Source: a virus
Virus record (IMG/VR): IMGVR_UViG_3300046010_014297
Coordinates: 1-38,540 of that record
Reading direction: 5' to 3' (one strand)
DNA: 38,540 nt
Under the pieces are notes generated by a model. That model was not told the origin of the DNA, did no database searches, and saw nothing but the letters and a program-made list of their open reading frames with translations. Shown here one piece after another: positions 977 through 31,800 of this stretch. The position numbers were made by a program, and so were the translations under genes. The number at the start of each line of letters is the position of its first letter. Positions within the stretch are counted from its first letter, which is position 1.

Positions 977-984
977 TATTTATG
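977..984 (-). promoter_or_regulatory. T4-type late promoter CATAAATA, leaderless spacing
   Basis: Read on the minus strand this is CATAAATA, one base from the T4 late consensus TATAAATA. Four bases (CAGC) separate it from the ATG at 972. The TAA stop of the HNH gene (980-982) lies inside the element. Confidence 0.6.
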
Positions 985-1723
985 CACGGTGGCGGCAAAG
1001 GTCTCCGTGGAATCTGGGATAGGTGTTTACAGCTATCTGTTGATCGCAATGTGGGCACAGCTTCTTCTCACGCTTGCTGCCACGGATAGCATCGGCTTTC
1101 TTTTGTACAGTTTCTGCTGACTGCTTACGACCGATGGCTTTTTCACGCATTTTTTTACGAGTATCTTCGGTTATTTTTACACCGTACCTATTATTGTTCT
1201 CGCCTTGCTTTGCTGCAGACATATTGGCTCGCCATTCATCTGAGAATGGCTTTCTTTTACGTCCTGTAATGGCCGCTTTTTGTTTTTCTTTTTCATCTAG
1301 TGGTTGCACTCTGCCTGTATTAGCCTCACTTATACGTTGGCGAGCTTCCTCGCTATGAGTCTTTCCCCACATACCATTTCCTTTACCAGTTACTTTAACC
1401 GATTGTATAATTGCATATTCTTGTTTAATATTCTCATATACTCTGGCTGTAATTTTAGTTTTGTATCTGTGTTGCCCGATCTTTTCTGCTCTCATCATCC
1501 TCAGTGCATAGACCATTTTTGCTCTATCCTCACCTGAGTTCATTTTAACTAACAGCCAATGGCATATGAAATGTTCTCTTGCTGTAAGGTCCACTAGATT
1601 ACCAGTATCGTCGGTGCCGCCGAGGCTACGCGGTATAACGTGATGTTTTTCTGTATAGCAATCTAGTATGCAACCACGAGCCCGATTTGTAATATTTTGA
1701 TACCAAGTTTGATATTTGTTCAT
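980..1723 (-). CDS. HNH homing-type endonuclease with NUMOD3-like motifs
   Basis: This 247-aa protein contains an HNH core near residues 25-60 (EKHHVIPRSLGGTDD, then GNLVDLTAREHFICH), with H27/H28 and N42 as likely metal and catalytic residues. Residues 118-138 (MWGKTHSEEARQRISEANTGR-like) and about 185-220 resemble NUMOD3 DNA-binding motifs. The C-terminus has a CPHC...CRH zinc-finger-like end. The start at 1723 is chosen because a late promoter ends 5 nt upstream; the longer open frame would run back through a terminator and into gp23. Free-standing HNH genes are common mobile elements in T4-like phages. This one lies between gp23 and a fibre-like gene, with a terminator before it, consistent with an inserted element that carries its own promoter. 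Confidence 0.85.
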   Translation of the reverse strand: MNKYQTWYQNITNRARGCILDCYTEKHHVIPRSLGGTDDTGNLVDLTAREHFICHWLLVKMNSGEDRAKMVYALRMMRAEKIGQHRYKTKITARVYENIKQEYAIIQSVKVTGKGNGMWGKTHSEEARQRISEANTGRVQPLDEKEKQKAAITGRKRKPFSDEWRANMSAAKQGENNNRYGVKITEDTRKKMREKAIGRKQSAETVQKKADAIRGSKREKKLCPHCDQQIAVNTYPRFHGDLCRHRA

Positions 1724-1728
1724 AATAG

Positions 1729-1736
1729 TATTTATG
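1729..1736 (-). promoter_or_regulatory. T4-type late promoter CATAAATA for the HNH gene
   Basis: CATAAATA on the minus strand, followed by CTATT and then the ATG at 1723. The 5-nt gap would put the predicted start of transcription at or next to the A of ATG. Confidence 0.6.
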
Positions 1737-1778
1737 TTTGTTAATACAATATAACATATTATAGGAAAAATAGTCAAC

Positions 1779-1804
1779 AAAAAACCTGCCGAAGCAGGTT
1801 TTTT
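1779..1804. terminator. Bidirectional rho-independent terminator after gp23
   Basis: AAAAAACCTGC and GCAGGTTTTTT form a perfect 11-bp stem around a 4-nt loop. On the minus strand the loop is TTCG, an exceptionally stable tetraloop, and the stem ends in six Ts. It lies 23 nt past the gp23 stop and should end the head-gene transcript. The T-run on the other strand means it can work in both directions. Confidence 0.9.
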
Positions 1805-1826
1805 GATAATACACAATACTAATCGA

Positions 1827-3038
1827 TCAACTAAACGACAGATTGCTGACTGCAATTTCACCCACATAATCTCCGGCGTTACCGAACGAAGATGCTGTGT
1901 TCGTGAGCTCTATGTACCCGTAGCGGGTCATAAAGCTGACCACTGGTTCGAATGTTGTAGGATCAAGTACAACACCGCTGCTCATCAGTGGAATGTATGG
2001 GCAGTAGAACGCAGGAGCGTCAGCCTCTGAGCTACCTTTATAGCCAACCAGAACAGGAGTTGTATCTGAAGCATAGCTATCAACGAACACACGCATAGCG
2101 CCGTTCAGTGTACCAACAAACTTGGTGTTGGTAGGTGCTTCAAAAGTACCTTCTGTAGTGCGGGCAAAAGCTGAAGTAGTGGCGCTCTGGAGCACTGTAA
2201 GTGCAGCAGAGCTAACAACTGCGTAGTTACCAGCGCCGCGGCGTGTGCGTTGGGCGATCAAGTTTGCCATGCGGTTGATAAGAACAGCAAGAGCAGCATG
2301 TTCGTCGCCAACGAATGTAGCGGTGCCGGACACTGTGGCCTGGTTATAGGTAAACTCTGTGCTGGCCAGGCTGCGAAGGCTCAGGAGGATCTCCTGGTCA
2401 ATCTCAGCGGTGATCTCTTGAGCAAGAGCGGCCATGATTTCAGCCTCGACGTCAATGCCGTGCATGGCTTGTGCGTCTTGAGCGGCTTCAAAAGTCCAGC
2501 GAGCCTGCAGTTTACGAGTTTTAGCTTCAACCGCCTGTTTCAGGATCTGGACGGAAATCTGACGACCGCCTGAACCTTCCAGAGTGGTTGTATTAGCCCC
2601 ACCGTAGATTGATTGACTGGATGAAACCACACCAGCAGTCACTGAGCTGGCAGTGGAGTAAGCAGTGGCAATTTTGAATGGGCTCAATGCTTCTTCGCCG
2701 GCCACTGTGCTGGTAGCAGCAGCAGAGGTATCGGTCATGGTATTGGCATATCGTACACGCAGTGTGTGAATTTGTCCAACTGGACCGGTCATTGGTTGCA
2801 CGCCCACTAATTCATTGGCAATCACAGTGGGCATAACACGACGGATCACTGGAAGAATCACTCGATTCAGTGTAGCGATATTGCCTGCTGCGGTTGAGCC
2901 GCTGCTGGCATTCTCTTTAAGGTACTTACGGGTGTTTTCAAGAATCACACCCATACTGTTGCGACGACTGCCTTTTAGACCTTCTAGCAAGGCTTCTTTG
3001 GTTTCGCCCCAACGATCTTCTAGTAAAACATTTGACAT
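1827..3038 (-). CDS. 23: Major capsid protein gp23-like
   Basis: This 403-aa protein is a T4-type major capsid protein; it forms the hexamers of the head shell. The strongest signature is the block around residues 56-95: LNRVILPVIRRVMPTVIANE, then LVGVQPMTGPVGQIHTLRVR. The conserved C-terminal half includes a TRYGYIELT-like segment. It is shorter than T4 gp23 (521 aa), as is usual in aquatic relatives, probably through reduction of the insertion domain. The N-terminal ~45 residues are charged and contain several sites matching the gp21 cleavage consensus (L/I)-X-E, for example L40-K41-E42 just before NASSG, which is an inferred processing point. The start is supported by AAGGAGA 8 nt upstream. 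It is last in the gp67-21-22-23 gene run and is followed by a strong terminator. Confidence 0.96.
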   Translation of the reverse strand: MSNVLLEDRWGETKEALLEGLKGSRRNSMGVILENTRKYLKENASSGSTAAGNIATLNRVILPVIRRVMPTVIANELVGVQPMTGPVGQIHTLRVRYANTMTDTSAAATSTVAGEEALSPFKIATAYSTASSVTAGVVSSSQSIYGGANTTTLEGSGGRQISVQILKQAVEAKTRKLQARWTFEAAQDAQAMHGIDVEAEIMAALAQEITAEIDQEILLSLRSLASTEFTYNQATVSGTATFVGDEHAALAVLINRMANLIAQRTRRGAGNYAVVSSAALTVLQSATTSAFARTTEGTFEAPTNTKFVGTLNGAMRVFVDSYASDTTPVLVGYKGSSEADAPAFYCPYIPLMSSGVVLDPTTFEPVVSFMTRYGYIELTNTASSFGNAGDYVGEIAVSNLSFS

Positions 3039-7870: not shown

Positions 7871-10141
7871 TTAAGCACGCTGATATCTCAACATATCTTT
7901 GTTTAGATTATTATTCATCCGCATCATATCCACTAGATCATCTAATCTTTCAGTCTGTACTGCCATGATTTCGCCCAGTCTTCTCAAATTCTCATTGAAC
8001 CCAGGCATTTCAATGGGTATACTTCTACCACCAGCTAACGGGATCACTGCTTCTGTGCCATGTAAAGTGGCTCTATACCCGCTGGAGGGGCCAGACAGAA
8101 TGTTGCCATATCTCGATCCCAATGTGTCAATGACATCAGATCTGGATATAGTGGCTCGATTATTTGGGTATCTTGATTGACCGTTTTCCATAGGAAAAGA
8201 TGCAAACAATTTTGTTAATCTATCTGCAAATTCTGTGCCGGTCAATGATCCCTGTAGATATTCTTGATATCCGTACATGTTCAATAATGCAGCAGCAGCT
8301 TTGTCTTGGCCGGCTACATCAAACATGTCAGTCTCTCGTATATCTCGTCTATCAATCAACATTTGCAGTGTGGCCGGTATGATCTGATATTTGCCCGCTG
8401 CGGTACCTAGACCTCTTCGATATCGATCATTTTGCAAAGCCAATACTTCTTGTACAGTCATCGATGTCAAATTGGGTATAATATCACCGCCATACATGAT
8501 ATTAGGAGTATTATTACTTTCGGCCCTGGCAGCCAATTGAAGTATTTCTCCAATTGTGGCCTTATCAGCTCTTTCTGGCGCACCGCCTAGGCCGGGTTGT
8601 GATCTCGGTGGCGCCCCGCTGCCGCCACCGGGTGAATAACCTCCTTGCGCGCCAAAAGGAGGTGCTGAACCTAGGCCACTTCCACCACCCCCACCACCAC
8701 CACCTCCGCCACCGCCCGATGGCACAGCAGTTCCTCCCAATTGATCAGGAGAAACTCCTAATGTGTTGGCCACAAAGTTGACAACGGCATTTACAGCACC
8801 GGCAAATTTATTGACTGCTATTGCAGCATATGGCAATGCTTGAAAAGACAATATATTGATTCTTCTGTTTAATAGTTCTAATTCTTTGTTAGCACTTACA
8901 AAATTATTGGTTAATTTATTTTGTTCGCCTTGTTGCGCTTCTCTTATGGTTGTTAATTGATTTTCTAAATCTGTTTGATCTTTGATTGCTAGATTGGCCA
9001 ATCTAGTTTGATCAGTGGCTCTCAAATAAACTCCAGATGCATCACCTCCTACACGAGCAAATCGATCTACCACTGTTTCGAAATTTTTAGCAGATCCAGA
9101 CAGTCGTTGTAGAGCCTGTATGTCATTGATCCTACCGGATTGAAGATCGTCTATGACTCGTTGAGCTTCTCCTCCGGTACTTTGAATCAATTTTACTGCT
9201 TCTGCAGTACCGGGAAACCCTGACATCAAATCTCTAAAACCTTGAGCTGCATCTGCACTGACCAAAGTTCCCAAGGCTTGGCTGGTATTTTGAATTTGTT
9301 TGGCCAACTCGCCCTGGCCTGCTCTTTCCATTTCTCGTATGGATGCACCAAATATACCTTCTCGTAATTCTGCTTCTCGTTGCTCTCGTAATTGTTTGGC
9401 ATTGGCACCAGTTATCTTGCTTAATCTATCCATTTCCAATGCCAAATTTTTAGTACCGTCGGTCAGTGATTGTTCAGTTATCAACTGATTTCTTCCCAAT
9501 AACACCTGTTGTCTGGCATATGCAGCACCACTTTCCACAATATCATCAGTATTCAAGCCCAACTTACGCATGGAATCGCCCAAAGTCGATGCAGGATTGG
9601 CCAATTTTCCCACGGCTTTGAAAAATGTTGTAGAACCTGTACTGACTATGCCACCAAACTGTGCAAAAGTTACACTGTTTTCTAAAATTGTTTTACGAAA
9701 ACTCTGTAGGCTTTGGCCCGATTGCACAAATTGCTCGCCGATGCCTTCTATGTTTGTTGCAGTCAATGCACCCACTCGACCCAGATCAGTAAAGATATCA
9801 CCTACTTCATCAAGTTGATCAATGACAAATTTTGTTGCAGTAGCAGTGGCTTTGACCCCTTGGTCTACAATGGCCCCCACATAGGGTATTGCCCGTGCCA
9901 ATTTGCCCAATGTGCCAGCTGCTGAATCCACAACGGTGTTTAAATTGTTGAATTTGGTACTGCCTCTGCCCACACTGTTGACAAAGGATCCAGTGGCACT
10001 GGCCATGTCTAGAACCGAGTCACGCAGTCCTTTGGCAAAGTTCTTTAACCTATCAGATGAATCAGTGGTATCTTGACCAAAAAGACGCATGATGCGTCGT
10101 AGTTCTTCTATCTCACGATTGAAATCATCAATATTATTCAC
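7871..10141 (-). CDS. Tape-measure-like tail protein with lysozyme-like domain
   Basis: This 756-aa protein starts at GTG 10141; the frame is closed just upstream. Residues 1-460 are mostly helical with short hydrophobic stretches (residues 80-125, 430-465), typical of tail tape-measure proteins. A run of 12 Gly (476-487) and a Gly/Pro linker follow. Residues ~528-650 look like a lysozyme-type hydrolase: LAARAESNN with E541 as likely catalytic acid, then TSMTVQEVLALQ, TAAGKYQIIPATLQMLI and FDVAGQDKAAAALLNMYGY. The motif LHGTEAVIPLAGG near 693-705 is common at tape-measure C-termini. It therefore probably carries the peptidoglycan-cutting activity for DNA entry, which T4 has in gp5; the gp5-like protein here shows no such domain. 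It could instead be a separate tail lysozyme. There is no clear Shine-Dalgarno sequence. Confidence 0.75.
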   Translation of the reverse strand: MNNIDDFNREIEELRRIMRLFGQDTTDSSDRLKNFAKGLRDSVLDMASATGSFVNSVGRGSTKFNNLNTVVDSAAGTLGKLARAIPYVGAIVDQGVKATATATKFVIDQLDEVGDIFTDLGRVGALTATNIEGIGEQFVQSGQSLQSFRKTILENSVTFAQFGGIVSTGSTTFFKAVGKLANPASTLGDSMRKLGLNTDDIVESGAAYARQQVLLGRNQLITEQSLTDGTKNLALEMDRLSKITGANAKQLREQREAELREGIFGASIREMERAGQGELAKQIQNTSQALGTLVSADAAQGFRDLMSGFPGTAEAVKLIQSTGGEAQRVIDDLQSGRINDIQALQRLSGSAKNFETVVDRFARVGGDASGVYLRATDQTRLANLAIKDQTDLENQLTTIREAQQGEQNKLTNNFVSANKELELLNRRINILSFQALPYAAIAVNKFAGAVNAVVNFVANTLGVSPDQLGGTAVPSGGGGGGGGGGGGSGLGSAPPFGAQGGYSPGGGSGAPPRSQPGLGGAPERADKATIGEILQLAARAESNNTPNIMYGGDIIPNLTSMTVQEVLALQNDRYRRGLGTAAGKYQIIPATLQMLIDRRDIRETDMFDVAGQDKAAAALLNMYGYQEYLQGSLTGTEFADRLTKLFASFPMENGQSRYPNNRATISRSDVIDTLGSRYGNILSGPSSGYRATLHGTEAVIPLAGGRSIPIEMPGFNENLRRLGEIMAVQTERLDDLVDMMRMNNNLNKDMLRYQRA

Positions 10142-10156
10142 GGCTGTTTTGGTTCA

Positions 10157-10164
10157 TATAAGTA
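10157..10164 (+). promoter_or_regulatory. Late-promoter-like TATAAGTA for the gp26-like gene
   Basis: TATAAGTA is one base from TATAAATA and lies 23 nt before the ATG at 10188, which has TTAGGT as ribosome-binding site. It sits 5 nt from the opposing element at 10170-10177. Confidence 0.5.
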
Positions 10165-10169
10165 TAATT

Positions 10170-10177
10170 TATTTATG
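10170..10177 (-). promoter_or_regulatory. Late promoter CATAAATA for the tape-measure-like gene
   Basis: CATAAATA on the minus strand, 28 nt before the GTG start. Its predicted transcription start falls at the plus-strand element at 10157-10164, so polymerase binding at the two sites should be mutually exclusive. Confidence 0.55.
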
Positions 10178-10187
10178 GTTAGGTCAA

Positions 10188-11030
10188 ATGCATTATTCTG
10201 ATAATCCACTCAAAAAGTATTTTAGACAACCCAGTATATACATAAGATTGCCCAGTCAAGGTGCTTGGTACGAACCCAACAGCATTGTCATGCCGCCCAA
10301 TGGCGAGTTGGCAGTATTGCCCATGACTGCCAACGATGAAATCACTAGTCGTACTCCGGATGCCTTGTTCAACGGATCGGCTGTGGCTGATATTGTGGGT
10401 AGCTGTATACCTTCAATTAGAAATCCCTGGAGTATACCCAGCATCGACATCAACACAATTTTAGTAGGCATAAGAATTGCCAGCTATGGGCATGTCATGA
10501 CCATCGACAGCGGTTGTCCAAAATGCGGACACAATCATGAATATGAATTAGATCTACGAGTAATAGCCGACAACATCAAATGCCCGGACTACAATAAAAA
10601 ACTGTTGGTAGACAATCTGCAGATATCTTTTAGACCGTTGAGTTACAAACAGATCAACGACAGTAATATATTGCAGTTCGAAGATCAAAAATTAATGCAA
10701 GTGATCAACCAAAGCGACATAGACAGTCAGGAAAAAATCAAAACCATATCTGACAGTTTCAAGAAAATCACAAAGTTGACCATGAGAGCCATATCCATGT
10801 GCGTTGCCAGTATAGAAGGTCAGGATTTCAAAGTCACTGAACAAAATCATATTTTAGAATACTTGGAAAATTGCCATAAAACCAATTTCAATCTCATAAG
10901 AGATCACATCAGCGAATTGAAAAAAATCAACGATTTTGATTTGCTAGACATAACCTGTATGCAGTGCTCGCATCAATACAAACAAGAATTTGTTTTAGAT
11001 ATTTCAAATTTTTTCGAAACCAACTCTTAA
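10188..11030 (+). CDS. 26: gp26-like baseplate hub / tail assembly protein, zero-frame product
   Basis: This 280-aa protein starts at ATG 10188 (MHYSDNPLKKYFRQPSIYIR); the frame's upstream extension overlaps the tape-measure gene and is rejected. The N-terminal pattern (P-S-I-Y-I-R-LPSQG-A-W-Y) matches the T4 baseplate-protein family that includes gp26. In T4, gp26 is needed for hub assembly, and from memory it is absent from the cryo-EM baseplate model. Two CxxC pairs, C110/C113 and C257/C260, could form one zinc site. The end of the gene has a slippery TTTTTTC and a stem-loop, and the adjoining -1 frame is open for another 76 codons with no good start. This product is therefore probably one of a pair. 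It is next to the tape-measure-like gene but divergent. Confidence 0.75.
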   Translation: MHYSDNPLKKYFRQPSIYIRLPSQGAWYEPNSIVMPPNGELAVLPMTANDEITSRTPDALFNGSAVADIVGSCIPSIRNPWSIPSIDINTILVGIRIASYGHVMTIDSGCPKCGHNHEYELDLRVIADNIKCPDYNKKLLVDNLQISFRPLSYKQINDSNILQFEDQKLMQVINQSDIDSQEKIKTISDSFKKITKLTMRAISMCVASIEGQDFKVTEQNHILEYLENCHKTNFNLIRDHISELKKINDFDLLDITCMQCSHQYKQEFVLDISNFFETNS

Positions 11031-11062: not shown

Positions 11063-11245
11063 GATCGATTCGAAAAAGAAGTCAAATCCATAAAAAAAGA
11101 ATTGATAAAGTTTTGCTGGTACATGCGTGGCGGGCTGACCTACTCTGAAGCACTGGAGTTGAGTTCTCAAGAAAGAGTGATTGTGTCGGAATTGATCACT
11201 GAAAATTTAGAGACCACCAAAAAAAGTGGCATGCCTTTCTTTTAG
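11015..11245 (+). CDS. -1 frame extension of gp26-like (tail-chaperone-like C-terminus)
   Basis: This is the open frame entered by the predicted -1 frameshift: 76 residues beginning RNQLLNLNSEQISKLVDRFE and including KFCWYMRGGLTYSEALELSS and ITENLETTKKSGMPFF. The shifted product would be 352 aa. The frame has no ATG; its only upstream start is a GTG at 10964, deep inside the gp26-like gene, and a TTG near 11056 would cut into the conserved-looking part. From memory, a similar WYMRGG-type small protein follows the gp26-like gene in aquatic T4-like phages. Frameshifted pairs next to a tape-measure gene are the hallmark of gpG/gpGT-type tail assembly chaperones in other phages, so a chaperone role is plausible. 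Its stop overlaps the stop of the convergent gene. If frameshifting is wrong, it may be translated from the GTG or a non-standard start. Confidence 0.65.
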   Translation, partial: RNQLLNLNSEQISKLVDRFEKEVKSIKKELIKFCWYMRGGLTYSEALELSSQERVIVSELITENLETTKKSGMPFF

Positions 11246-11871
11246 ACCAACTGCCAGATTGTCTGACCAAAATTTTCAGGTTCTATACCAAAGAACAGAC
11301 ATTTCCATTTGCTCTGCTCGAAAAAATCTAAATGTTCCCATTGATGTCGTTTCCGATAAATTCGCTGTGCCCAGTCATGCCAGTCGGCGTTGAGAAACAC
11401 AGGTTCAACGCGAGATTTTAATTCTTGATACTGATCATAATCAAAAAAATCATATTCAAAATGTATAATTTCAAATATGACACCCTGTGTGTCCACATAT
11501 TCTATGGCAAAATCAACACCCCATTTGGGACGAATTTGCAGTAATCTATGGTAAACAGGATACTGCCGAGACCACTGCTGCAACTGTTCGGCTGCTGCCT
11601 GCCTATAGCCCTTTCTCCATAATAAAAAACTGTGATTGAGAACCACACCTTCCACTGTGGGTTCTTGCAGTATCCAATCTAATTTTGTGGCATTATCATA
11701 GTGGCTGTGATCGTTATTGGCTTGTTGATAGTGTTTTTCCAAGGGGCAAAGTTCAAAGCCATTGACAGAAAACAATTGAACTTGATCAGCACCATGTGCA
11801 ATGTTATATTTTATTGAATCACAGTAATAGCCGTTTGGTGATAATTGATTTGTTGATAAACTCAGTTTCAT
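11242..11871 (-). CDS. Hypothetical late protein, 209 aa
   Basis: MKLSLSTNQLSPNGYYCDSI starts a 209-aa protein rich in aromatic residues, W, H and Q, without signal peptide or membrane segment. Notable parts are KWGVDFAIEYVDTQGVIFEI followed by IHFEYDFFDYDQY, and a Trp-rich tail (WHDWAQRIYRKRHQWEHLDF). I do not recognise the family. A late promoter ends 5 nt before the ATG. The stop codon overlaps the stop of the plus-strand frameshift ORF. Read-through from the plus strand would make antisense RNA to this gene up to the terminator at 11912-11942. Confidence 0.75.
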   Translation of the reverse strand: MKLSLSTNQLSPNGYYCDSIKYNIAHGADQVQLFSVNGFELCPLEKHYQQANNDHSHYDNATKLDWILQEPTVEGVVLNHSFLLWRKGYRQAAAEQLQQWSRQYPVYHRLLQIRPKWGVDFAIEYVDTQGVIFEIIHFEYDFFDYDQYQELKSRVEPVFLNADWHDWAQRIYRKRHQWEHLDFFEQSKWKCLFFGIEPENFGQTIWQLV

Positions 11872-11876
11872 ATCAC

Positions 11877-11884
11877 TATTTACA
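11877..11884 (-). promoter_or_regulatory. Late-promoter-like TGTAAATA, leaderless spacing
   Basis: TGTAAATA on the minus strand, then GTGAT and the ATG at 11871. It repeats the 5-nt gap seen at 1729, 5969 and 12822. Confidence 0.5.
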
Positions 11885-11892
11885 CACTGTAG

Positions 11893-11942
11893 AGAACTGC
11901 TGTGCAGTTCTAGGACTTCACTGTCGTTCAGTCCTGTTTTTT
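11893..11942 (+). terminator. Tandem hairpins ending in a plus-strand terminator
   Basis: AGAACTGC-TGT-GCAGTTCT (11893-11911) is a perfect 8-bp hairpin. It is followed at once by AGGACT...AGTCCT (11912-11935) with G and six Ts, a plus-strand rho-independent terminator. It would stop transcripts coming from the gp26-like gene before they reach the structured RNA region. On the minus strand neither hairpin has a U-run. Confidence 0.7.
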
Positions 11943-11943
11943 A

Positions 11944-12296
11944 CTTGGTTATACTGTTATTCTTCTTAGATACTCATCTAGATTAAGTGGTCATACTTGC
12001 CCGTTGCCGGGCAAGGTCAACAGGTTCTCATCTGAGTAGCGCAGTCATTTGTGTAAGAAGATTTGTTTTTCAACAACGGAGGCGGTTGTGCTGTACCCCC
12101 TACTTCAGCCTTGTCTCACAACGGAACACCCTGAACCCGACACAAATCCAAGTCAGTGATGCTGCGGTTGCATCTTTTTCGCAGAGCCGCAATCCTTTAA
12201 GCCTGAGTTAGCTCTAAAACTTTGACACCCAAGATCCACCGGCCACGAGCACTATCTCGGCTGGTTCAATGGGGTTGAGCCCTGGTATCGCTCAAC
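11944..12296 (-). ncRNA. Candidate structured non-coding RNA, class unknown
   Basis: About 350 nt without a credible gene, visibly richer in G+C than its surroundings and full of perfect pairings. CTTGCCCG/CGGGCAAG (11996-12015) is an 8-bp stem whose minus-strand loop is GCAA, a GNRA tetraloop, which favours minus-strand transcription. GTTGAGC/GCTCAAC (12274-12296) overlaps the stop codon of the upstream nuclease gene. TGCGG/CCGCA plus TGC/GCA form a hairpin at 12163-12191. GTTGT/ACAAC with GCTG/CAGC pair within 12085-12122. ATTTGTGT (12047-12054) pairs with ACACAAAT (12140-12147), and GGTTC (12023) with GAACC (12133), which would cross as a pseudoknot. It could be co-transcribed from the late promoter at 12822. 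I could not match it to tRNA, tmRNA, group I intron or RNase P by eye. Confidence 0.55.
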
Positions 12297-12816
12297 ACAG
12301 TGTCTGACAACTGATATTTTTTACTGATTGATGATTTTGTGCAAAAAAGCTATCGCAATCGGTTATGATCCAAATGCCTGATTGATGATTATGATATATT
12401 GTGTGATTTGTGATTTGAAAATGTGATTGCCATATTTGTTGAAATGCCACAAATGTGCCTTTGTGATTGAATTTCATGAATAAAATGTTGAAATCGCCTG
12501 GGTCAGCTACAGTCAAACATTGTTCAATCCATGAATCCAGGTGCCTGATGTTGCCTTTGAGTAGTTGATGAAATGGAAAATCTTGATAGTTTTTACATTC
12601 GCAATTGAATTTATTCCAATCGTCCGGTGGAACAATGTCGCCTTTGAATGATTTGGTTTGATTCTCATCCAGAAATTGTCTTCTGATCTGATTACGCCCA
12701 CCAATGAATGCTCCGGAATGTGGAACACGAATAAAGGATTCTTGATAGAGTTCGCTGAGAAATTTGGCAACTTCTCTTTCGTATCCGGAACCTTTATTTT
12801 TACTTTTTGATGGCAT
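12292..12816 (-). CDS. PD-(D/E)XK nuclease, Holliday-junction-resolvase-like
   Basis: This 174-aa protein has the full PD-(D/E)XK pattern: E13 in GYEREVAKFL, the RVPHSGAF segment, D60 in GDIVPPD, and E73/K75 in NCECKNY, followed by FHQLLKGNIRHLDSWIEQC. This layout resembles archaeal-type Holliday junction resolvases and related phage nucleases. It follows gp46 by 33 nt and so belongs to the recombination cluster, where it may process branched or broken DNA with gp46/47. Cleavage specificity cannot be told from sequence. AATAAGTA ends 5 nt before its ATG, giving it a late-promoter-like element of its own. Its stop codon lies inside the first hairpin of the candidate RNA. Confidence 0.85.
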   Translation of the reverse strand: MPSKSKNKGSGYEREVAKFLSELYQESFIRVPHSGAFIGGRNQIRRQFLDENQTKSFKGDIVPPDDWNKFNCECKNYQDFPFHQLLKGNIRHLDSWIEQCLTVADPGDFNILFMKFNHKGTFVAFQQIWQSHFQITNHTIYHNHQSGIWIITDCDSFFAQNHQSVKNISCQTLC

Positions 12817-12849: not shown

Positions 12850-14604
12850 TTATTCTTCAAAGCTATAGCTGGTAAAACCGTTGCTTTTTATGACTTTTAA
12901 CACATTACTGACTCGTCCCACCAACTCATCTCTGTGACTGACCAGCCAAATACTTTTGTTGCGCTCTCGACACATCATTTTTAACAGTGCCAAACTGGCT
13001 TCTACGCCTTGTGTGTCCAGTCCGGAATCAATCATTTCGTCTATGAACAATAAATTAATGGGTTGATATAGACTTTCCCAGACATCTCTAAAAGCCCAAC
13101 TCATACTGAGTATGAGTCTATTTCTTTCGCCACGGCTGAGATTATCAAAATCTAATTCCCGCCCCAGTTCTTCTATACTGACTGAAAGATCGTTTTGAAA
13201 TTTGACTATGTGTGGTAATCCGATTCTTTCGAGATAATAGGTCAATCTTGAATTCAAATAAGCCAGATTCTGATCTATGATTTTTTTTCTTACAAAACTA
13301 TCTTTGCTGGTCAATAATTTCAACAAAAAGTCTTGATGTTCCTGTACTCTGGTATGATAGTTAAGCATATCATATGATATGACCTGCATGGCAGTATTTT
13401 CCATGTCTACTATTTGTTCGGTGTAGGGATTGACTGCAGTGGTACGAGTTTCTAGATCTTTTTTAAGTTGATCAAGTGTGTTTTTATGATTTAATGCCAA
13501 TTCTATGTTGTCATAAAATACTGTTGGTTTTTCGGGCAGAGTACCAATATTGTCTATAGTGGCAAGATGCTCGATTTTCTGTGTTTCGTTACTTAAAATC
13601 TGCAATGCAGTTTCTTGTAATGTGCGCTCTCGAGATTTTCTTATTGTCGATTGTGTTTGATCGTGTATGTCGTTTCCGCAGGCATAGCATTTGTGTTGGG
13701 CCAATGCAGCCAGTTCTTTTTCTATTTGTGTGATCAGTTTTTGTTGTTTGACATTGTCTCGTTCGATCTGCTCAATCCATGTTTTACATTGTTTAATCTG
13801 TTTGGACTTGTCTTCGTACTCAACGAGATTTCTATGTGCTTGTATTTCTTTGTCGATATCAATTTTGTCAAGTTCTTCAATGGCCAACACTAATTGATTG
13901 ATTTCTTCTTGTTGATTGGTCTGCCAGGTCGACTGACGCTTTTTCAGTGAGTCAATTTGCTCTTGTATTTTGCGATTGGATTCTATGATTGCACGGATAC
14001 GAAATTCTTCTTGCATGATGGAATCTCGTGTTTCCTTGTTGAGTTCTTTGATCCGTTCTGCTCGTTCACTGAGCAAAGTAATGCCCAATAATTGTTCAAT
14101 TATGGACCTTTGATCATTGCTACGCAAACTAAGAAAAGGTTCAGTGTAGGTGTTCAATGTCAAGATATGCTTGAACATGTCGTGACTGATGCCCAGCATT
14201 TGTTCTATGTATTCTTGAGTTTCTCGACTGTCGCCTTGTGCATCGTCAACAATTTGTTGTTCTTCGTTGTCAACATAAAACTTCAATATGTTGGGTTTTC
14301 TACCTCGAACAATTCTGTAGTTTTTTTCATTGATGGAAAAATCCAAGCCCACTAACATATTTTTGGCATTGGTTTTGTTGACTAAGTTATCTCTGCGAAT
14401 ATTACTCAATGCTTGACCATATAATGCATATGACAATGCATTGATAGCAGTGGTTTTTCCTGTACCGTTCCGTGATCCGTCGCCGCCTAGATCTAGATTT
14501 TCTCCCAATACCAGTGTGAGATCGCCGCGATCAAAATCAATAGTCTGAGCAACATTACCTATGCTCATGAAATTTTTTAGAGTAAGAGTTTTGAGTTTGA
14601 TCAT
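12850..14604 (-). CDS. 46: Recombination endonuclease ATPase subunit gp46-like (Rad50/SbcC type)
   Basis: This 584-aa SMC/Rad50-type ATPase has Walker A NGTGKTT (residues 46-52), a zinc-hook-like CxxC in HKCYACGND (C306, C309) between two coiled-coil arms (~180-300, ~315-440), ABC signature LSRGERNRL (489-497), Walker B LLFIDE (518-523) and H-loop SHRDE (556-560). With gp47 it resects DNA ends for recombination-dependent replication and host DNA breakdown. Length is close to T4 gp46 (560 aa). The ATG is 3 nt after the gp47 stop, pointing to coupled translation. Confidence 0.95.
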   Translation of the reverse strand: MIKLKTLTLKNFMSIGNVAQTIDFDRGDLTLVLGENLDLGGDGSRNGTGKTTAINALSYALYGQALSNIRRDNLVNKTNAKNMLVGLDFSINEKNYRIVRGRKPNILKFYVDNEEQQIVDDAQGDSRETQEYIEQMLGISHDMFKHILTLNTYTEPFLSLRSNDQRSIIEQLLGITLLSERAERIKELNKETRDSIMQEEFRIRAIIESNRKIQEQIDSLKKRQSTWQTNQQEEINQLVLAIEELDKIDIDKEIQAHRNLVEYEDKSKQIKQCKTWIEQIERDNVKQQKLITQIEKELAALAQHKCYACGNDIHDQTQSTIRKSRERTLQETALQILSNETQKIEHLATIDNIGTLPEKPTVFYDNIELALNHKNTLDQLKKDLETRTTAVNPYTEQIVDMENTAMQVISYDMLNYHTRVQEHQDFLLKLLTSKDSFVRKKIIDQNLAYLNSRLTYYLERIGLPHIVKFQNDLSVSIEELGRELDFDNLSRGERNRLILSMSWAFRDVWESLYQPINLLFIDEMIDSGLDTQGVEASLALLKMMCRERNKSIWLVSHRDELVGRVSNVLKVIKSNGFTSYSFEE

Positions 14605-14607
14605 ATA

Positions 14608-15624
14608 TTATAAACTTTGATAGATTTCCAGCAGCAATCTGCTGTCATAAAATTCACTGTCTATACTGGTGATTTGATCTACTACAATCTGATCAACACT
14701 TTCAAATTTGATATCACCTGGTGCGATATCTTGATTGAGATCGTGTGTTTTGTTTGGTATCAATGACATTTCGCGTAAATTGTACTGTGACACAAAAGTT
14801 TCCTTGATAAAATTGGCTTCTTCGTAGCTGATGGCAATGTCCAAACTGACTTTGACATGCATCTTGGGTTTCAACAAGTCGGCTGCATGATCCAACAAGT
14901 CAGCTAGACCAAAAATTTTATAGATGGGCTGTTCGGGCCAGGCATGATATTCTGGTTTTTGACCCCAATTTAATATCATACAACCTCGCTGATCATCGTT
15001 GACATCTGAATAATTATGTGGAAAACAATTGCCAATATAGGTAATGTTATTTTTTGATTGTCTTTTATGAAAATGCCCAGTAAATACTTGATCAAAATTA
15101 TGAAAATGTTCTCTACGAACTTGTCCATGATCTGGCATTTCGATCATGGCATTCATCAAGTAACCTGGCAATTCAAAATGTCCAAACATGTATTTGGCCT
15201 TCATTTTGGTGATCTTTTTGTAATCATCACCAACTAACCAAGGTGCGATCACCACATCATCTTGTTGAAACCAGTCATTGCAAATCACAATATTGGGCAA
15301 GTGTCGCGCCCAGGCCACACCATGTATATCTCTGCGATCTCGATAGTATAAGTCATGGTTGCCGGGTATAAAGTAAAACCTGTCAAATGCAGCACTGAGT
15401 TTTTCCAGTGCCTGCAAAGAAAACTGTAGCGTCTGTAAATTTATACTAGCTCTGTGATTGTGCCAATCACCAAGAAAGAAACCAGTTTCACATTTTTGTT
15501 CTTTGGCCAATTCAATGAACCATTCGATGAATTGTTCGCAGTCTTGGTTGTGTGTCAAACTGTTGGATTTAAGACCGAAATGTATATCGGTTATTACTGC
15601 GGCTTTTTTAAAAAGATTCGACAT
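14608..15624 (-). CDS. 47: Recombination endonuclease nuclease subunit gp47-like (Mre11/SbcD type)
   Basis: This 338-aa metallophosphoesterase has the Mre11 metal-binding motifs in order: ITDIHFG (D13, H15), LGDWHNH (D53, H55), IPGNHDLYY (N89, H90, D91), FGHFE (H149) and FTGHFHKRQ (H184, H186). It forms the end-processing complex with gp46. Length matches T4 gp47 (339 aa). Its ATG follows the gp55 stop with no gap (TAAATG), so translation is probably coupled to gp55. Confidence 0.95.
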   Translation of the reverse strand: MSNLFKKAAVITDIHFGLKSNSLTHNQDCEQFIEWFIELAKEQKCETGFFLGDWHNHRASINLQTLQFSLQALEKLSAAFDRFYFIPGNHDLYYRDRRDIHGVAWARHLPNIVICNDWFQQDDVVIAPWLVGDDYKKITKMKAKYMFGHFELPGYLMNAMIEMPDHGQVRREHFHNFDQVFTGHFHKRQSKNNITYIGNCFPHNYSDVNDDQRGCMILNWGQKPEYHAWPEQPIYKIFGLADLLDHAADLLKPKMHVKVSLDIAISYEEANFIKETFVSQYNLREMSLIPNKTHDLNQDIAPGDIKFESVDQIVVDQITSIDSEFYDSRLLLEIYQSL

Positions 15625-16491
15625 TTATAAATTATCAGAATTGTGGCCAGACAGCATACCCTGTCTGGTATAGCTGGGGTTTAGTCCATTGATTTCTAAA
15701 ATATCATCTCGAATGTTTTGCATTTTTTTCTCGATGTTGAGTATTCTAGTAAATGAGTTGGTAATAGTAGCAGTAAAATATGCAAATGGATTACTGCTTT
15801 TGCTTTCGTCAAATTGTAGACCAATTTGACTTAACTGTAACAGTGCCTGCCCTTTCATTTCTTCGTTGTAGGTATAACCGCGCCAATTGCTTCTTGTGGC
15901 ATATCGTTCACAGAGTTTAACAAACATTTCGGCTAATCTGCGAGTCATTTGACCATGGTCTTTACTGAATGAACCATGATCTAGATCGCCGCACCAATGA
16001 CTTTTGCCCACAATATAGGGTATGCGATGTTCGTTGACCCTATAATGAAAAAACGGTGGAAAATTTAGCCGAATGTGTACCCCGTCGGTGACAAGTTGTT
16101 CTACAATTTCTTGATCTTCGTTTTCTGTGGGATCCTCTAGTTCCAGGATGTCTTCTATTCTTCTTTTTTTAGCAATGGTTTTGGGAGTTTTCTTTTGTGC
16201 AAGCGGTATATGTTCCCATGTTGTGACACGAAAAACCAAATCAGTTATAGCAATTTTTTTTGGATCCAGAGTTTCGCCTGTTTCTCTACGAATTCTTTCA
16301 ACGCGATTCTTTTTGGCTTCGGCGATAGTTCTCGTATTGATCTTGGTAACCGATGGTAAAATTATATCATACATATGATCTTTTACTGAATCACTGAACA
16401 CACAATAGCTATTTTTACTTAGATGTATTTCTTTTAGTATATCTCTATTATTGAGATAGTTTACTTTTTTGGGTATAGCAGTCAATGTCAT
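15625..16491 (-). CDS. 55: Late-transcription sigma factor gp55-like, with large insertion
   Basis: This 288-aa protein matches T4 gp55 (185 aa) at both ends. The N-terminal KKVNYLNNRDILKEI (8-22) corresponds to T4 YNYVNNKELLQAI. The C-terminal sigma-region-2-like part (~183-265) has RGYTYNEEMKGQALLQLSQI, then GLQFDESKSSNPFAYFTATI and an RILNIEKK-like segment. About 150 residues between them (27-180) have no counterpart in T4. gp55 recognises TATAAATA in T4, and similar elements are frequent in this window. The start at 16491 has AGGAAA about 9 nt upstream. It heads the gp55-47-46 gene run. Confidence 0.9.
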   Translation of the reverse strand: MTLTAIPKKVNYLNNRDILKEIHLSKNSYCVFSDSVKDHMYDIILPSVTKINTRTIAEAKKNRVERIRRETGETLDPKKIAITDLVFRVTTWEHIPLAQKKTPKTIAKKRRIEDILELEDPTENEDQEIVEQLVTDGVHIRLNFPPFFHYRVNEHRIPYIVGKSHWCGDLDHGSFSKDHGQMTRRLAEMFVKLCERYATRSNWRGYTYNEEMKGQALLQLSQIGLQFDESKSSNPFAYFTATITNSFTRILNIEKKMQNIRDDILEINGLNPSYTRQGMLSGHNSDNL

Positions 16492-28400: not shown

Positions 28401-28873
28401 CAATAGATGAATTGTCCACTGCATATAAAAACTTGCAAAACTACAAAATGATCAGTGACAACATTGTTCTTAACAGTGTGACTTTTAAACCGCTGTTTGG
28501 AGAAAAAGCAGCCGAAAGTCTAAGAGCTACTATAAAAGTTATCAAAGCTGTCAACAGTAATGCCAGCGACAGTGCCATAAAGAATTTGGTTGTAAATAAT
28601 CTCAATGATTATTTCACTATAGATAAATGGGATTTTGGTGCTACCTTTTATTTCAGTGAATGTGCTGCTTACATCCACAGAAATATGGGAGGTATAGTCA
28701 GCAGTGTGGTAATTGTGCCATTAAATCCAACAAAAAGTTTCGGTGATCTCTACGAAGTAAGAAGCGCACCTAACGAAATTTTCGTGAATTGTGCCACTGT
28801 AAATAATGTCGAAGTGATATCTGCTTTGACCAGCACCAACATAAGAACTGCACCGGGCAGCGGGGTAATTTAA
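25448..28873 (+). CDS. 6: Baseplate wedge protein gp6-like, enlarged
   Basis: This 1141-aa protein has a gp6 (baseplate-J-like) N-terminus: WKRIYQTFREADFQSYDFET, FNDYIESSEFIALLDVIAFM followed by GQALAFRNDLNTRENYLDTA, and RDSVVRLANLVGYTPKRN. The region NRMVNGEDYNNFPFTLYNSI (~430-450) is another family block. In T4, gp6 (660 aa) forms the dimeric ring that holds the wedges together. This protein is about 480 residues longer, the extra length lying in the middle and C-terminal half (~480-1000). It ends in a TAATG overlap with the giant gene, implying coupled translation. Confidence 0.9.
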   Translation: MARTTRQTVIFGVEDWKRIYQTFREADFQSYDFETLRKSFVDYLRQYYPETFNDYIESSEFIALLDVIAFMGQALAFRNDLNTRENYLDTAERRDSVVRLANLVGYTPKRNTAAQGYLKVFNVQTTENVIDFNGINLSNITINWNDPTNLNWREQFNAIINAALVDSQKIGRPGNRQNIVNVLTDEYSINLVPGFLPIVGYNSTVDGVQMPFEAVSVTSAGEDYIYEVSPSPNAVFNILYRNDRMGFESANTGFFFYFKQGVLTNQDFNLSEQITNQTVNINIEGINNEDKWLFQLDDVGNTTEEWQFVDNVFAGAVEQLDPEQRKLFSVTSRVNDQITLVFGDGVFSAIPVGFFRCYVRASNGLRYIINPEEMQSVSIPITYISRTGQTETITFTCGITQPVSNAQPRESIAEIKQRAPARYYTQNRMVNGEDYNNFPFTLYNSIIKSKAVNRASIGTSRWLDLVDNTGKYSSTNSFGSDGALWEDNQLPTFSFTWLTQNDIANVINNQIEPTIIRDEFTQFYYENFPRPSLTSLSLTWQQSTTLYNETTGYFVDGAGTPVPVGISSSTNTKYIVLGSLIKFQAPNGQYFDNENKLQVGSPSQDGDKSVLWASPISIIGDGTNNGQGNLSNGLGPITINDFVPTGAIPVQVIPVLITSLPTSVINSIIDQIVLFRNFGLGYNNITSTWYVITNTNLAVDAEFSLANAQSTAGTNSDASWLMQFIVSGDTYTASTRFLVYGFGSVLQTRFFFETNQNIYDPRTGTTIKDFVKVLRSNSQPDSNQSLTTDYPLRIIAQPVLSDGLVDDFQVNVSYEDSDADGIADDPDFFYEIVDPATNPVYKTVFFEKTVDFDNLERYLLVSYDRVYRDLPTLTSIELVKEEFDPGQVFYAYAQVTNTGSVGAFYLITVVNDEKVLVDVSSEWIVKTGRQNLYYQYRHNAPLTSRIDPGTSNIIDLYVVTQQYYIAYQNWIRDTTGTVIEPQQPTIDELSTAYKNLQNYKMISDNIVLNSVTFKPLFGEKAAESLRATIKVIKAVNSNASDSAIKNLVVNNLNDYFTIDKWDFGATFYFSECAAYIHRNMGGIVSSVVIVPLNPTKSFGDLYEVRSAPNEIFVNCATVNNVEVISALTSTNIRTAPGSGVI

Positions 28874-31800
28874 TGTCTTTGAAAACAGTTGATTTTTTAC
28901 CAGAAATTTTTCAAACTCCTGTCAATAGGCAGTTTCTGTCTGCCACACTTGACCAATTAACACAAGAACCGGAATTTAAAAAGACACAAGGATACATTGG
29001 TAGAAGAGTTGGTCCCGGTGTTAACCCCAGCGACAGATATGTCATAGAATTAGATAAAACCAGAACAGATTATCAACTTGAACCTGGTGTGGTTTCGTTG
29101 GATCAAGATAGATCAGTGATTAAAGATGTGATAACTTATCCTGGGCTACTGGATGCATTAAAACTACAAGGTGCTGATATTACACAGGCAGATAGGCTTT
29201 ACAACAGTGAATACTATGCCTGGGATCCATTTATCAATGTTGATAAATTTATCAACTTCAGTCAATATTATTGGTTACCAAACGGACCGGATGCCGTAGA
29301 CATCAGCTCAACTGCAATTCCATTGACTGATGATTTCATTGTGACCAGAACTGACAGGGGCTATGAATTTTCTGGATTGGCCGGAAATAGGCCCACAATT
29401 TATCTACTGCGCGGCGGCACTTATACCTTTCAACTAGATCAAGCACCCAACAACTTTTGGATACAGTTAGAGCCTGGTATCAATGGTACCCTGGCTGCCA
29501 CCCCCAATATTTCCAGTAGAGATATATTGGGGGTGGACAATAACGGCATCAACAATGGCACCATAACTTTTACAGTTCCTGCAGCTGATGCTCAGCAATT
29601 TTACTATGATCTGCCTTTACTGGGATCTGTGGATCTATTGACCACATCATTGTCTTTGGAAGATATCAACAATGTATATCTTTCCGAATTTTTAACTGCT
29701 AACCCACAAGGCATTGATGGTATTACAAGTTTAGATCAAAAAACCATAGTGTTTACCACTGATCAAGGATGGATTTTAACTACAAGATTTGATCCTCTTG
29801 CACAATTGCCTGTCAATAACGGATTACCTGGCAGCTTCGATAGTTTGCTGTTTGATCAAGCCACACAGGTGCCTTTTCAAGATCGTTATAACATCTGGAA
29901 AATTGTCTACAATTATGACACTGACAACAATATCTTTTTGACTGTGGAACCCTATCAGACAATTTCTGTTTATGACAAAGTAAATATTCTTTTCGGGCAA
30001 CAGTGGAGTAACACACAATGGTACAAAAACAACAGCGAATACCTGGAAAAAATTCCCCTGCTGTCAGCAGTGTTTAATACACTCTACTACCAGGATGCCA
30101 CCAATCCCAATTTCTTTGGCGTAATTAAACTGATTACTTCAACCAGCAACGACACAATTTTCATCAATGACATTTTGGGTAAACCAAACTACACCAGCCC
30201 AACTGGAGTGGTTTTCACCAACAACTTAAAAGTAATATTTCGTGGTTCGGTGGTGCCAGACAGTTATCAAAATAATGAATATTATGTTGCTGGAGTGGGA
30301 ACAGCTATTCAACTGTTACCGGTCATTGATTATATTACACCAGAAATTTACATAGACAGCACAGAACCCAACCAACCGCTAAGACCAGATTACTTGTTGA
30401 TGGCACTGGACAGTCCTAGTCTTAATCCTTGGTCTAGAACAAATAGATGGTTTCATGTTGATGTCATCAACGCCACTGCTGAATACAATAATTCTACCCC
30501 TGACTTAAACAATGAATATAGAGCCAAAAGACCTATTTTAGAATTTAGAGGTGGAATACAACTGTACAACATGGGCACACAGGCATTGCCCCCGGTCAAT
30601 ATTGTTGATTTCACTACCACAGATGCACTGTCTCAAGTAAATGGGCAACCCAGTTACACAGTTGATGGATATACTTTTGAAAATGGCAGCAGAGTGATAT
30701 TTGCAGCAGACACTGACAATAATGTGAAAAATAAGATTTACACTGTGTCATTTATTGAACCCACTGGAGACAGCAGTTCTGAGGTAATTTTGTTGACGGA
30801 AGCAAACACAGTTTTGACTAATAATTGTGTGGTGTCGCTGGACGGAAGTATCACACAAGGAAAATCCTATTGGTTTAACGGCCTTGACTGGATTATAGCA
30901 CAACAAAAAAATTCCATTAATCAAGCCCCATTGTTTGATGTCTATGACTTGTCCGGTATTAGTTACAGTGATCAAGAAGTTTATGTCAGTTCAAATTTTG
31001 TCGGTAGCAAGATTTTCAGTTATCAGATTGGTGTGGGAATAGACGATCCCATACTGGGATTTCCGTTGGGATATCTCAGTTTAAACAACATCGGTGACAT
31101 TGTCTTTGACAATAATTTTTATACTCAAAGTTTTGTCTATGTAGGCAATCAACAGAGTCAAACTCTAAAAATCAGCAATGGTACTCTAAAAGAATATAGC
31201 GATAGAACAAACTATACACCCAGAATAGGTTGGCAAACCGCTGCTACTCGTAGTCAGATTTATCAGCAATTTAGTTTTAAATATGATCCCACACAGCCTT
31301 TGATTTTAGATATTGAAGTCTTGAATCAATTGGACATAGACGTGCCAGTATTGAAAATCTATGTGGAAGGAGTATATCAAATACCGGGAACATTTACCTA
31401 CACAACACAGATTAATAATACTACAATCACACTGTCCAGCACAGATATACCCACCGACGCTTTGATAGAAGTATTGGCTTTGAGTAATCAACCCAGTGCA
31501 TATGGTTTTTATCAAATACCTGCCAATTTACAAAATAATCCATTTAATGAAAATTCGTCAACATTTACTTTGGGCACTGCTAGACAGCACTATGAAAGTA
31601 TTGCAGAAAATCTAAACGATTTTGCCGGTGACATCAACGGTGCCAATAATATCAGAGACTTGGGCAATGTGTTGCCCTATGGGTTGGTTATAAATCAACA
31701 AAGCTCACCGTTGACTTTGGCGGGATACTTTTTTAGAAGCAAGCAGTTTAATATATTTGCTGCATTAGATTACAACAGTAGAGAATATGAAAAAGTCAAA

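Follow-up and report, generated by a model that had tools for sequence, protein, structure and literature searches.

The window analyzed here, a stretch of viral DNA of 38,540 nucleotides, represents part of a T4-like phage genome (38.5 kb), with gp20 (portal), gp46, gp47, and a gp55-type late sigma factor recognizable. A gp55-gp47-gp46-PDDEXK operon on the minus strand is followed by a structured RNA on the same strand, with the surrounding genes organized as follows.

12850-16491, minus strand: gp46-gp47-gp55 operon, upstream of the RNA
12292-12816, minus strand: PDDEXK_15 nuclease (RusA-like resolvase family in PHROGs), the upstream gene
11892-12304, minus strand: the whole noncoding RNA element, 5' end at 12304 and 3' end at approximately 11892, as delimited by nhmmer relatives and covariation
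11242-11871, minus strand: 209-amino-acid open reading frame (ORF) that separates the RNA from the baseplate gene and matches nothing in Pfam or PHROGs
10089-11030, plus strand: baseplate-hub-like gene

The preliminary description had placed a gene-free, G+C-rich RNA at 11944 to 12296. Its location is correct, the interval holds no convincing gene, and the G+C content is indeed elevated (about 0.50 to 0.52 in the stretch versus 0.32 to 0.40 around it). The limits, however, were drawn too tightly, as the real element extends about 50 nt further at the 3' end and 8 nt further at the 5' end. Of the two neighbors it was said to lie between, a nuclease gene and a late gene, the former is the PDDEXK nuclease, whereas the 209-amino-acid ORF intervenes before the baseplate-hub-like gene. 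This ORF is absent from every large protein cluster of related loci. Elsewhere in the window, an HNH homing endonuclease with NUMOD3 repeats (980-1867, minus strand) lies among minus-strand genes near the portal gene, and a giant ORF of at least 3,222 amino acids (28873-38538, plus strand) runs off the window end.

An Rfam search, proposed earlier as a check, matched no family, including ordinary classes such as the group I intron. At gathering thresholds, Rfam 15 gave 0 matches in the window and in 12 loci from jumbo phages, and neither a group I intron nor a tmRNA was found by Rfam or ARAGORN. A relaxed Rfam search of the window and its jumbo-phage relatives returned chance-level matches only; sX14, TtnuCD34, mir-2941, and PinT were discarded as such. 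The folding energy of the single sequence is ordinary (z of -1.04 on the minus strand and -0.94 on the plus strand). Stems in a single sequence thus prove nothing, and the proof has to be comparative.

Related loci were fetched via the gp46 and PDDEXK proteins and searched with nhmmer, using the minus strand of 11872-12320 as the query. The element is present in most fetched loci, on the gp46 strand; in two of them (L070, approximately 9630-9944, and L068, approximately 9072-9386), the RNA lies opposite to the gp46 strand, unlike in all other gp46 loci. Iterated nhmmer searches yielded 101 loci, window included, and a pattern derived from the most conserved stretch retrieved at least 120 further viral loci, with the element in 119 of these. 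The total amounts to at least 220 loci from large T4-like phages or viral contigs, while the RNA occurred in 0 of 81 pattern matches to bacterial genomes, among the matches listed. From 220 loci, 172 near-complete elements were obtained, 124 of which are non-redundant at 93% identity. Where the sequence downstream of gp46 extends for 4 kb or more, the RNA is present in 39 of 43 loci, and only 31 of 220 loci have an ORF of 70 amino acids or more inside the element. Aquatic phages carry a single copy per contig, and the sequences preceding their RNAs showed no promoter motif. When these RNAs were compared to named phages by blastn, only chance matches resulted; a covariance model was needed to find relatives there.

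In 197 of 204 loci, the upstream gene points the same way as the RNA, and in 160 of 192 the next downstream gene converges on it, although in the window itself the next downstream ORF is co-directional. The prevailing arrangement implies that the RNA ends a transcription unit and is not the 5' leader of the following gene. The upstream neighbor is either a SegE GIY-YIG or a PDDEXK_15 nuclease, almost never both and sometimes neither, and an obligatory functional link to one nuclease was rejected because of this variation. The two unrelated nucleases seem to substitute for each other, and endonuclease VII takes the place in jumbo phages. In addition, SegE GIY-YIG-like proteins are labeled "NAD synthetase" in several phage records (H55, H56, H58, H62, and H63), apparently a misannotation. 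Neither the window nor any of 37 loci contained a tRNA gene.

Pairwise column statistics on the 124-sequence alignment revealed many helices, listed here in 5'-to-3' order together with the other segments of the RNA.

12224-12304, minus strand: helix P1 (12304-12300 with 12228-12224); in its three best pairs, 14 to 34 of 118 sequences have changes on both sides
12163-12191, minus strand: hairpin P6, GGCUCUGYGAAAAAGAUACAACC type (outer 12191-12187/12167-12163, inner 12183-12181/12171-12169)
12127-12161, minus strand: hairpin P7; covariation z of 8 to 14; the weakest helix, 57% paired
12048-12146, minus strand: long-range helix PK2 (12146-12140 with 12054-12048); both-side changes in 11 to 29 sequences per pair
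12085-12122, minus strand: pseudoknot helix P8 (12122-12117 with 12090-12085); 94% paired, both-side changes in 5 of 6 pairs
12057-12106, minus strand: helix P9 (12106-12103 with 12060-12057); 97% paired, both-side changes in 4 of 4 pairs
12078-12100, minus strand: pseudoknot helix P10, GGGGGU/GCCUCC (12100-12095 with 12083-12078); 98% paired
12063-12076, minus strand: hairpin P11; covariation z of 15 to 17, 86% paired
12027-12033, minus strand: repeat copy 1, AGAUGAG, preceded by a constant CUC
11996-12015, minus strand: hairpin P12, CUUGCCCG GCAA CGGGCAAG, with a repeat copy on either side; hairpin conserved, loop variable
11973-11979, minus strand: repeat copy 2, AGAUGAG, preceded by a constant UCU
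11936-11972, minus strand: A-rich linker after repeat copy 2, with little structure
11893-11935, minus strand: 3'-terminal hairpins P13 (11935-11912) and P14 (11911-11893); covariation z up to 26

At its 5' strand, P1 reaches into the final PDDEXK codons. P6 holds the best-covarying pair of the alignment (z of 28.7) and is 90 to 97% paired, the P7 loop takes part in PK2, and P9 encloses P10 and P11. P8 crosses both P9 and P10, which makes the core a pseudoknot; the first P10 pair changes from GC to AU in 26 sequences. Toward the 3' end, P14 is paired in 85 to 100%, and the linker averages 44% A across relatives, and 104 of 124 sequences have AAAA within the 70 nt that follow copy 2.

In a separate core alignment of 53 sequences, core pairs are formed in 88.3% of cells, compared to 72.3% with shuffled partners and 39.5 to 50.7% with slid partners. 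Cells changed on both sides number 299 (99 shuffled; 32 to 74 slid), and the core covariation score equals 0.411 (0.143 shuffled; 0.051 to 0.108 slid). The homologues therefore covary strongly in a comparison of the kind that the preliminary description had advised, and at the level of covariation the predicted fold, including the crossing P8/P10 pseudoknot, is proven. Two of the elements read earlier from the single sequence recur in it: the long-range 8-bp helix between 12047-12054 and 12140-12147 corresponds to PK2 and is paired more often than independent columns predict, and the 8-bp minus-strand stem with a GCAA loop is P12, at 12015-11996. The GGTTC/GAACC pseudoknot exists in the window, but in the 124 relatives it pairs no more commonly than independent columns would give. 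The crossing pair named at that stage was thus the wrong one, and the real pseudoknot and a 7-nt repeat had been missed.

With the covariance model of the aquatic-type core (R1), matches that were weak yet spanned the full length were obtained in Pectobacterium phage CBB and Agrobacterium phage Atu_ph07, in each case within an annotation gap. Sequences matching the CBB region occur in 31 named jumbo-phage records, and divergent members occupy annotation gaps in isolated jumbo phages, including CBB, GAP32, 121Q, Munch, and others, with about four to five copies in each of the seven genomes examined. R1 matches 21 of 28 jumbo loci at the expected place. These RNAs have the same crossing P8/P10 core. 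The start of P10 was set by comparing four offsets and keeping the best, which hardly ever differed between loci; so placed, P10 forms its pair in all 120 of 120 cells and shows compensatory changes. One jumbo paralogue sits in the slot seen in the window, after gp46/endonuclease VII and before the baseplate hub. The model matched nothing in PA5oct, T4, Melnitz, S-SRM01, and phiN3, where its sensitivity is too low to exclude divergent copies.

Six RaK2-like genomes each carry five copies on the same strand, with gaps spread more evenly than random (P of 0.001 to 0.02), though these genomes are related and the even spacing is largely one observation. In CBB, GAP32, 121Q, Kae01, and XaC1 (L361, L381-L384, and L421-L439), copies lie 47 to 94 kb apart, except for one 34-kb gap in XaC1. 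A phage promoter of the TGAAACG/TATAAT type, a class described for CBB (PMC5259590), lies just upstream of several jumbo copies; none was found for the aquatic type. Many jumbo copies also have a terminator-like hairpin with at least six T residues between repeat copy 1 and the G-rich hairpin that follows (L382, L383, L384, L422-L424, L428, L429, L432, and L433). The cumulative GC skew turns upward near the gp46-adjacent RNA copy in CBB (about 132 to 175 kb) and Munch (about 132 to 182 kb). Such a sign change occurs near only one of five copies and is confounded by a shift in gene direction at the same place.

The element almost certainly represents a previously unclassified class of structured RNA of about 400 to 600 nt in T4-like large and jumbo phages. 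This bears out the proposal of a large phage noncoding RNA of a new class, given the lack of Rfam matches, the strong pair covariation including a pseudoknot, and the at least 220 viral loci. The class is defined by a predicted P8/P9/P10 pseudoknot core plus a 7-nt word, a hairpin, and the same 7-nt word again, both of which are seen in the aquatic and jumbo types. Literature searches, with most subscription journals outside their range, found no account of such an RNA; large phage RNAs are known as a kind, and the class and its self-matching repeat are new as far as these searches reach.

This self-matching repeat is the most informative feature of the RNA. The strongest non-pairing signal in the alignment is the identity between the two 7-nt words flanking P12: in weighted sequences, copy 1 equals copy 2 at 0.86 to 0.96 for six of seven positions, versus 0.46 to 0.69 by chance, and the seventh position hardly varies. 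Among phages, the words vary (AGAUGAU, AGAUAAU, GGAUGAA, AACAAAA, ACAUGAA, and others), and the spacing between copies ranges from 49 to 94 nt. A tree built without the repeat columns places 92 changes in copy 1 and 89 in copy 2; in 65 cases, both copies undergo an identical change on one branch, compared to approximately 6 expected coincidences. Thus the sequence of the words is free to drift, yet each word remains a copy of the other. Standard covariation tools seek base pairs only, and co-evolving identical words are an unusual signature that they do not report.

The jumbo RNAs also have two equal words, around a G-rich hairpin. The word is CGUCAR in all 22 jumbo copies in which both words were read, and AUGAAUR, again matching itself, in Atu_ph07. 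CGUCAG is common to all five copies in CBB and GAP32, while in Kae01 one paralogue has CGUCAG twice and two others have CGUCAA twice. A neighboring U/C position is likewise matched within a copy and differs between copies of one genome (CBB, GAP32, 121Q, and Kae01). As the words match within each RNA although paralogues in the same genome differ, the constraint appears to act in cis. No third RNA segment in the alignment covaries as a complement of the words, and complements of a phage's own word are depleted inside its RNA relative to the words of other phages (exact, 0 versus 2.7; with G-U pairs, 13 versus 25.5), implying that internal pairing of the word is avoided. Since the RNA itself holds no complement, the natural candidate for a complementary strand is the template DNA of the gene encoding that RNA. 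Pairing of copy 1 with the template at copy 2 is possible only if the words are identical, so that identity combined with freedom of sequence is what such pairing would predict.

On these grounds, we tentatively propose, as a reasonable possibility, that the transcript hybridizes through copy 1 to the template DNA at copy 2, which would make the element a candidate replication-priming RNA. In its folded state, the RNA would offer copy 1 to the template strand at copy 2, where it would seed a persistent RNA-DNA hybrid (R-loop) that may prime replication or open the DNA for it, as in ColE1 RNA II and T4 oriF/oriG. The five evenly spaced, same-strand jumbo copies could then be several origins. 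The multicopy layout, the promoters upstream of several jumbo copies, and the A-rich linker after copy 2 are consistent with priming. Against it, 7 nt offer little length for a stable hybrid, aquatic phages have a single copy per contig and no promoter motif upstream of the RNA, the GC skew changes sign near only one of the five jumbo copies, and the terminator-like hairpin after copy 1 in many jumbo copies would stop most transcripts before copy 2. The broader claim, of a new class of replication-priming RNA in T4-like and jumbo phages, in which a large folded transcript would use a freely evolving, self-matched word to locate its template some tens of bases further on and would mark about five evenly spread jumbo-phage origins, is put forward with doubt.

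The precedents cited for priming, namely, the rG/dC interaction of ColE1 and the R-loops formed from middle-mode promoters at T4 oriF and oriG, are taken from two reports (PMC4412123; PMC5043065). As described there, ColE1 RNA II is a structured transcript of approximately 550 nt that serves as the replication primer of the plasmid and can function only when part of the transcript hybridizes to the template strand at a more downstream position (PMC4412123, PMC5043065). This requires a sense-sense (direct) match between two places in the DNA, and the two co-evolving copies provide one, a transcript segment being equal to a downstream non-template segment. Both systems thus have a structured transcript and a direct match, but the new RNA has no sequence or Rfam similarity to RNA II, which uses a G/C stretch where a freely varying 7-nt word is found here. 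The likeness is one of analogy, not homology. For T4 oriF and oriG, one of the reports describes a middle-mode promoter and an RNA primer for leading-strand synthesis (PMC4412123). The new RNA likewise belongs to T4-type phages; it differs in that T4 origins consist of a promoter and an unwinding element, and that the model matches nothing in T4. We know of no conserved large RNA fold for T4 origins.

The same two words could instead be landing sites for one partner acting in trans (a small RNA, an mRNA leader, a tRNA loop, or a protein) whose sequence changes between phages, the RNA being a sponge, scaffold, or guide. The freedom of the word from internal pairing agrees with this, as do the CGUCAG shared by all five copies in CBB and GAP32 and the presence of two identical sites, which is typical of sponges and dimer-binding RNAs. 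Still, neither the word nor its complement is enriched within approximately 6 kb of the RNA (181 loci), nor are the hexamers in the CBB and Munch genomes, and a shared partner does not predict that Kae01 paralogues should differ and yet match themselves, or that the U/C position should do so in four genomes. We consider a trans partner unlikely. An RNA acting through its shape, either as a homo-oligomer or as a ribonucleoprotein scaffold in which the repeats form symmetric contacts, would account for the elaborate conserved fold with its pseudoknot and would resemble the cages of GOLLD and ROOL, phage RNAs that assemble alone according to passages of one report that mention no self-matching repeat (PMC12286853). 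The new RNA shares with these their large, ornate, phage-encoded, and pseudoknotted character, but is shorter, has a different core, and matches none of the Rfam models; it is not a member of GOLLD, ROOL, or OLE. GOLLD and ROOL also often adjoin tRNA genes, which the new RNA does not in the window and 37 loci. Since identical single-stranded words do not pair with each other, a shape-based role leaves their free drift with retained identity unexplained and seems improbable.

Recombinase overlap regions of 6 to 8 bp must match while allowing any sequence, much like the words, and slippage is favored by hairpins between short direct repeats. The repeat could therefore be a strand-switch or crossover element, its identity serving polymerase hopping or recombinase crossover and the hairpin segment being skipped or excised. 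Inverted recombinase arms are absent around the words, though, the flanks are unequal (CUC versus UCU), 49 to 94 nt between copies is short for DNA looping, and no locus lacking the segment was noticed among the loci read, and this, too, seems improbable. Type III antitoxin RNAs (ToxI) are also phage related and combine pseudoknots with repeats; there, tandem repeats of approximately 35 nt lie beside a toxin gene, whereas here two 7-nt words surround a hairpin and no toxin gene was recognized near the RNA. Finally, an unannotated gap near nuclease genes might hide something ordinary, such as an overlooked gene, the remnant of an intron, a tmRNA, or a leader resembling a riboswitch. The scarcity of ORFs inside the element, the lack of an Rfam or tmRNA match, and the convergent downstream gene in most loci speak so clearly against this that we regard it as very improbable.

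The element is a large conserved RNA without a known relative, widespread in environmental T4-like phages and in cultured jumbo phages of Escherichia coli, Salmonella, Cronobacter, Erwinia, and Pectobacterium. Its presence in cultured phages, such as the 121Q-like Escherichia phage Sharanji, whose recorded host is the E. coli K-12 strain MG1655, makes it directly open to laboratory testing. If the priming proposal is true, it would explain how RaK2-like jumbo phages begin copying their 350-kb genomes.
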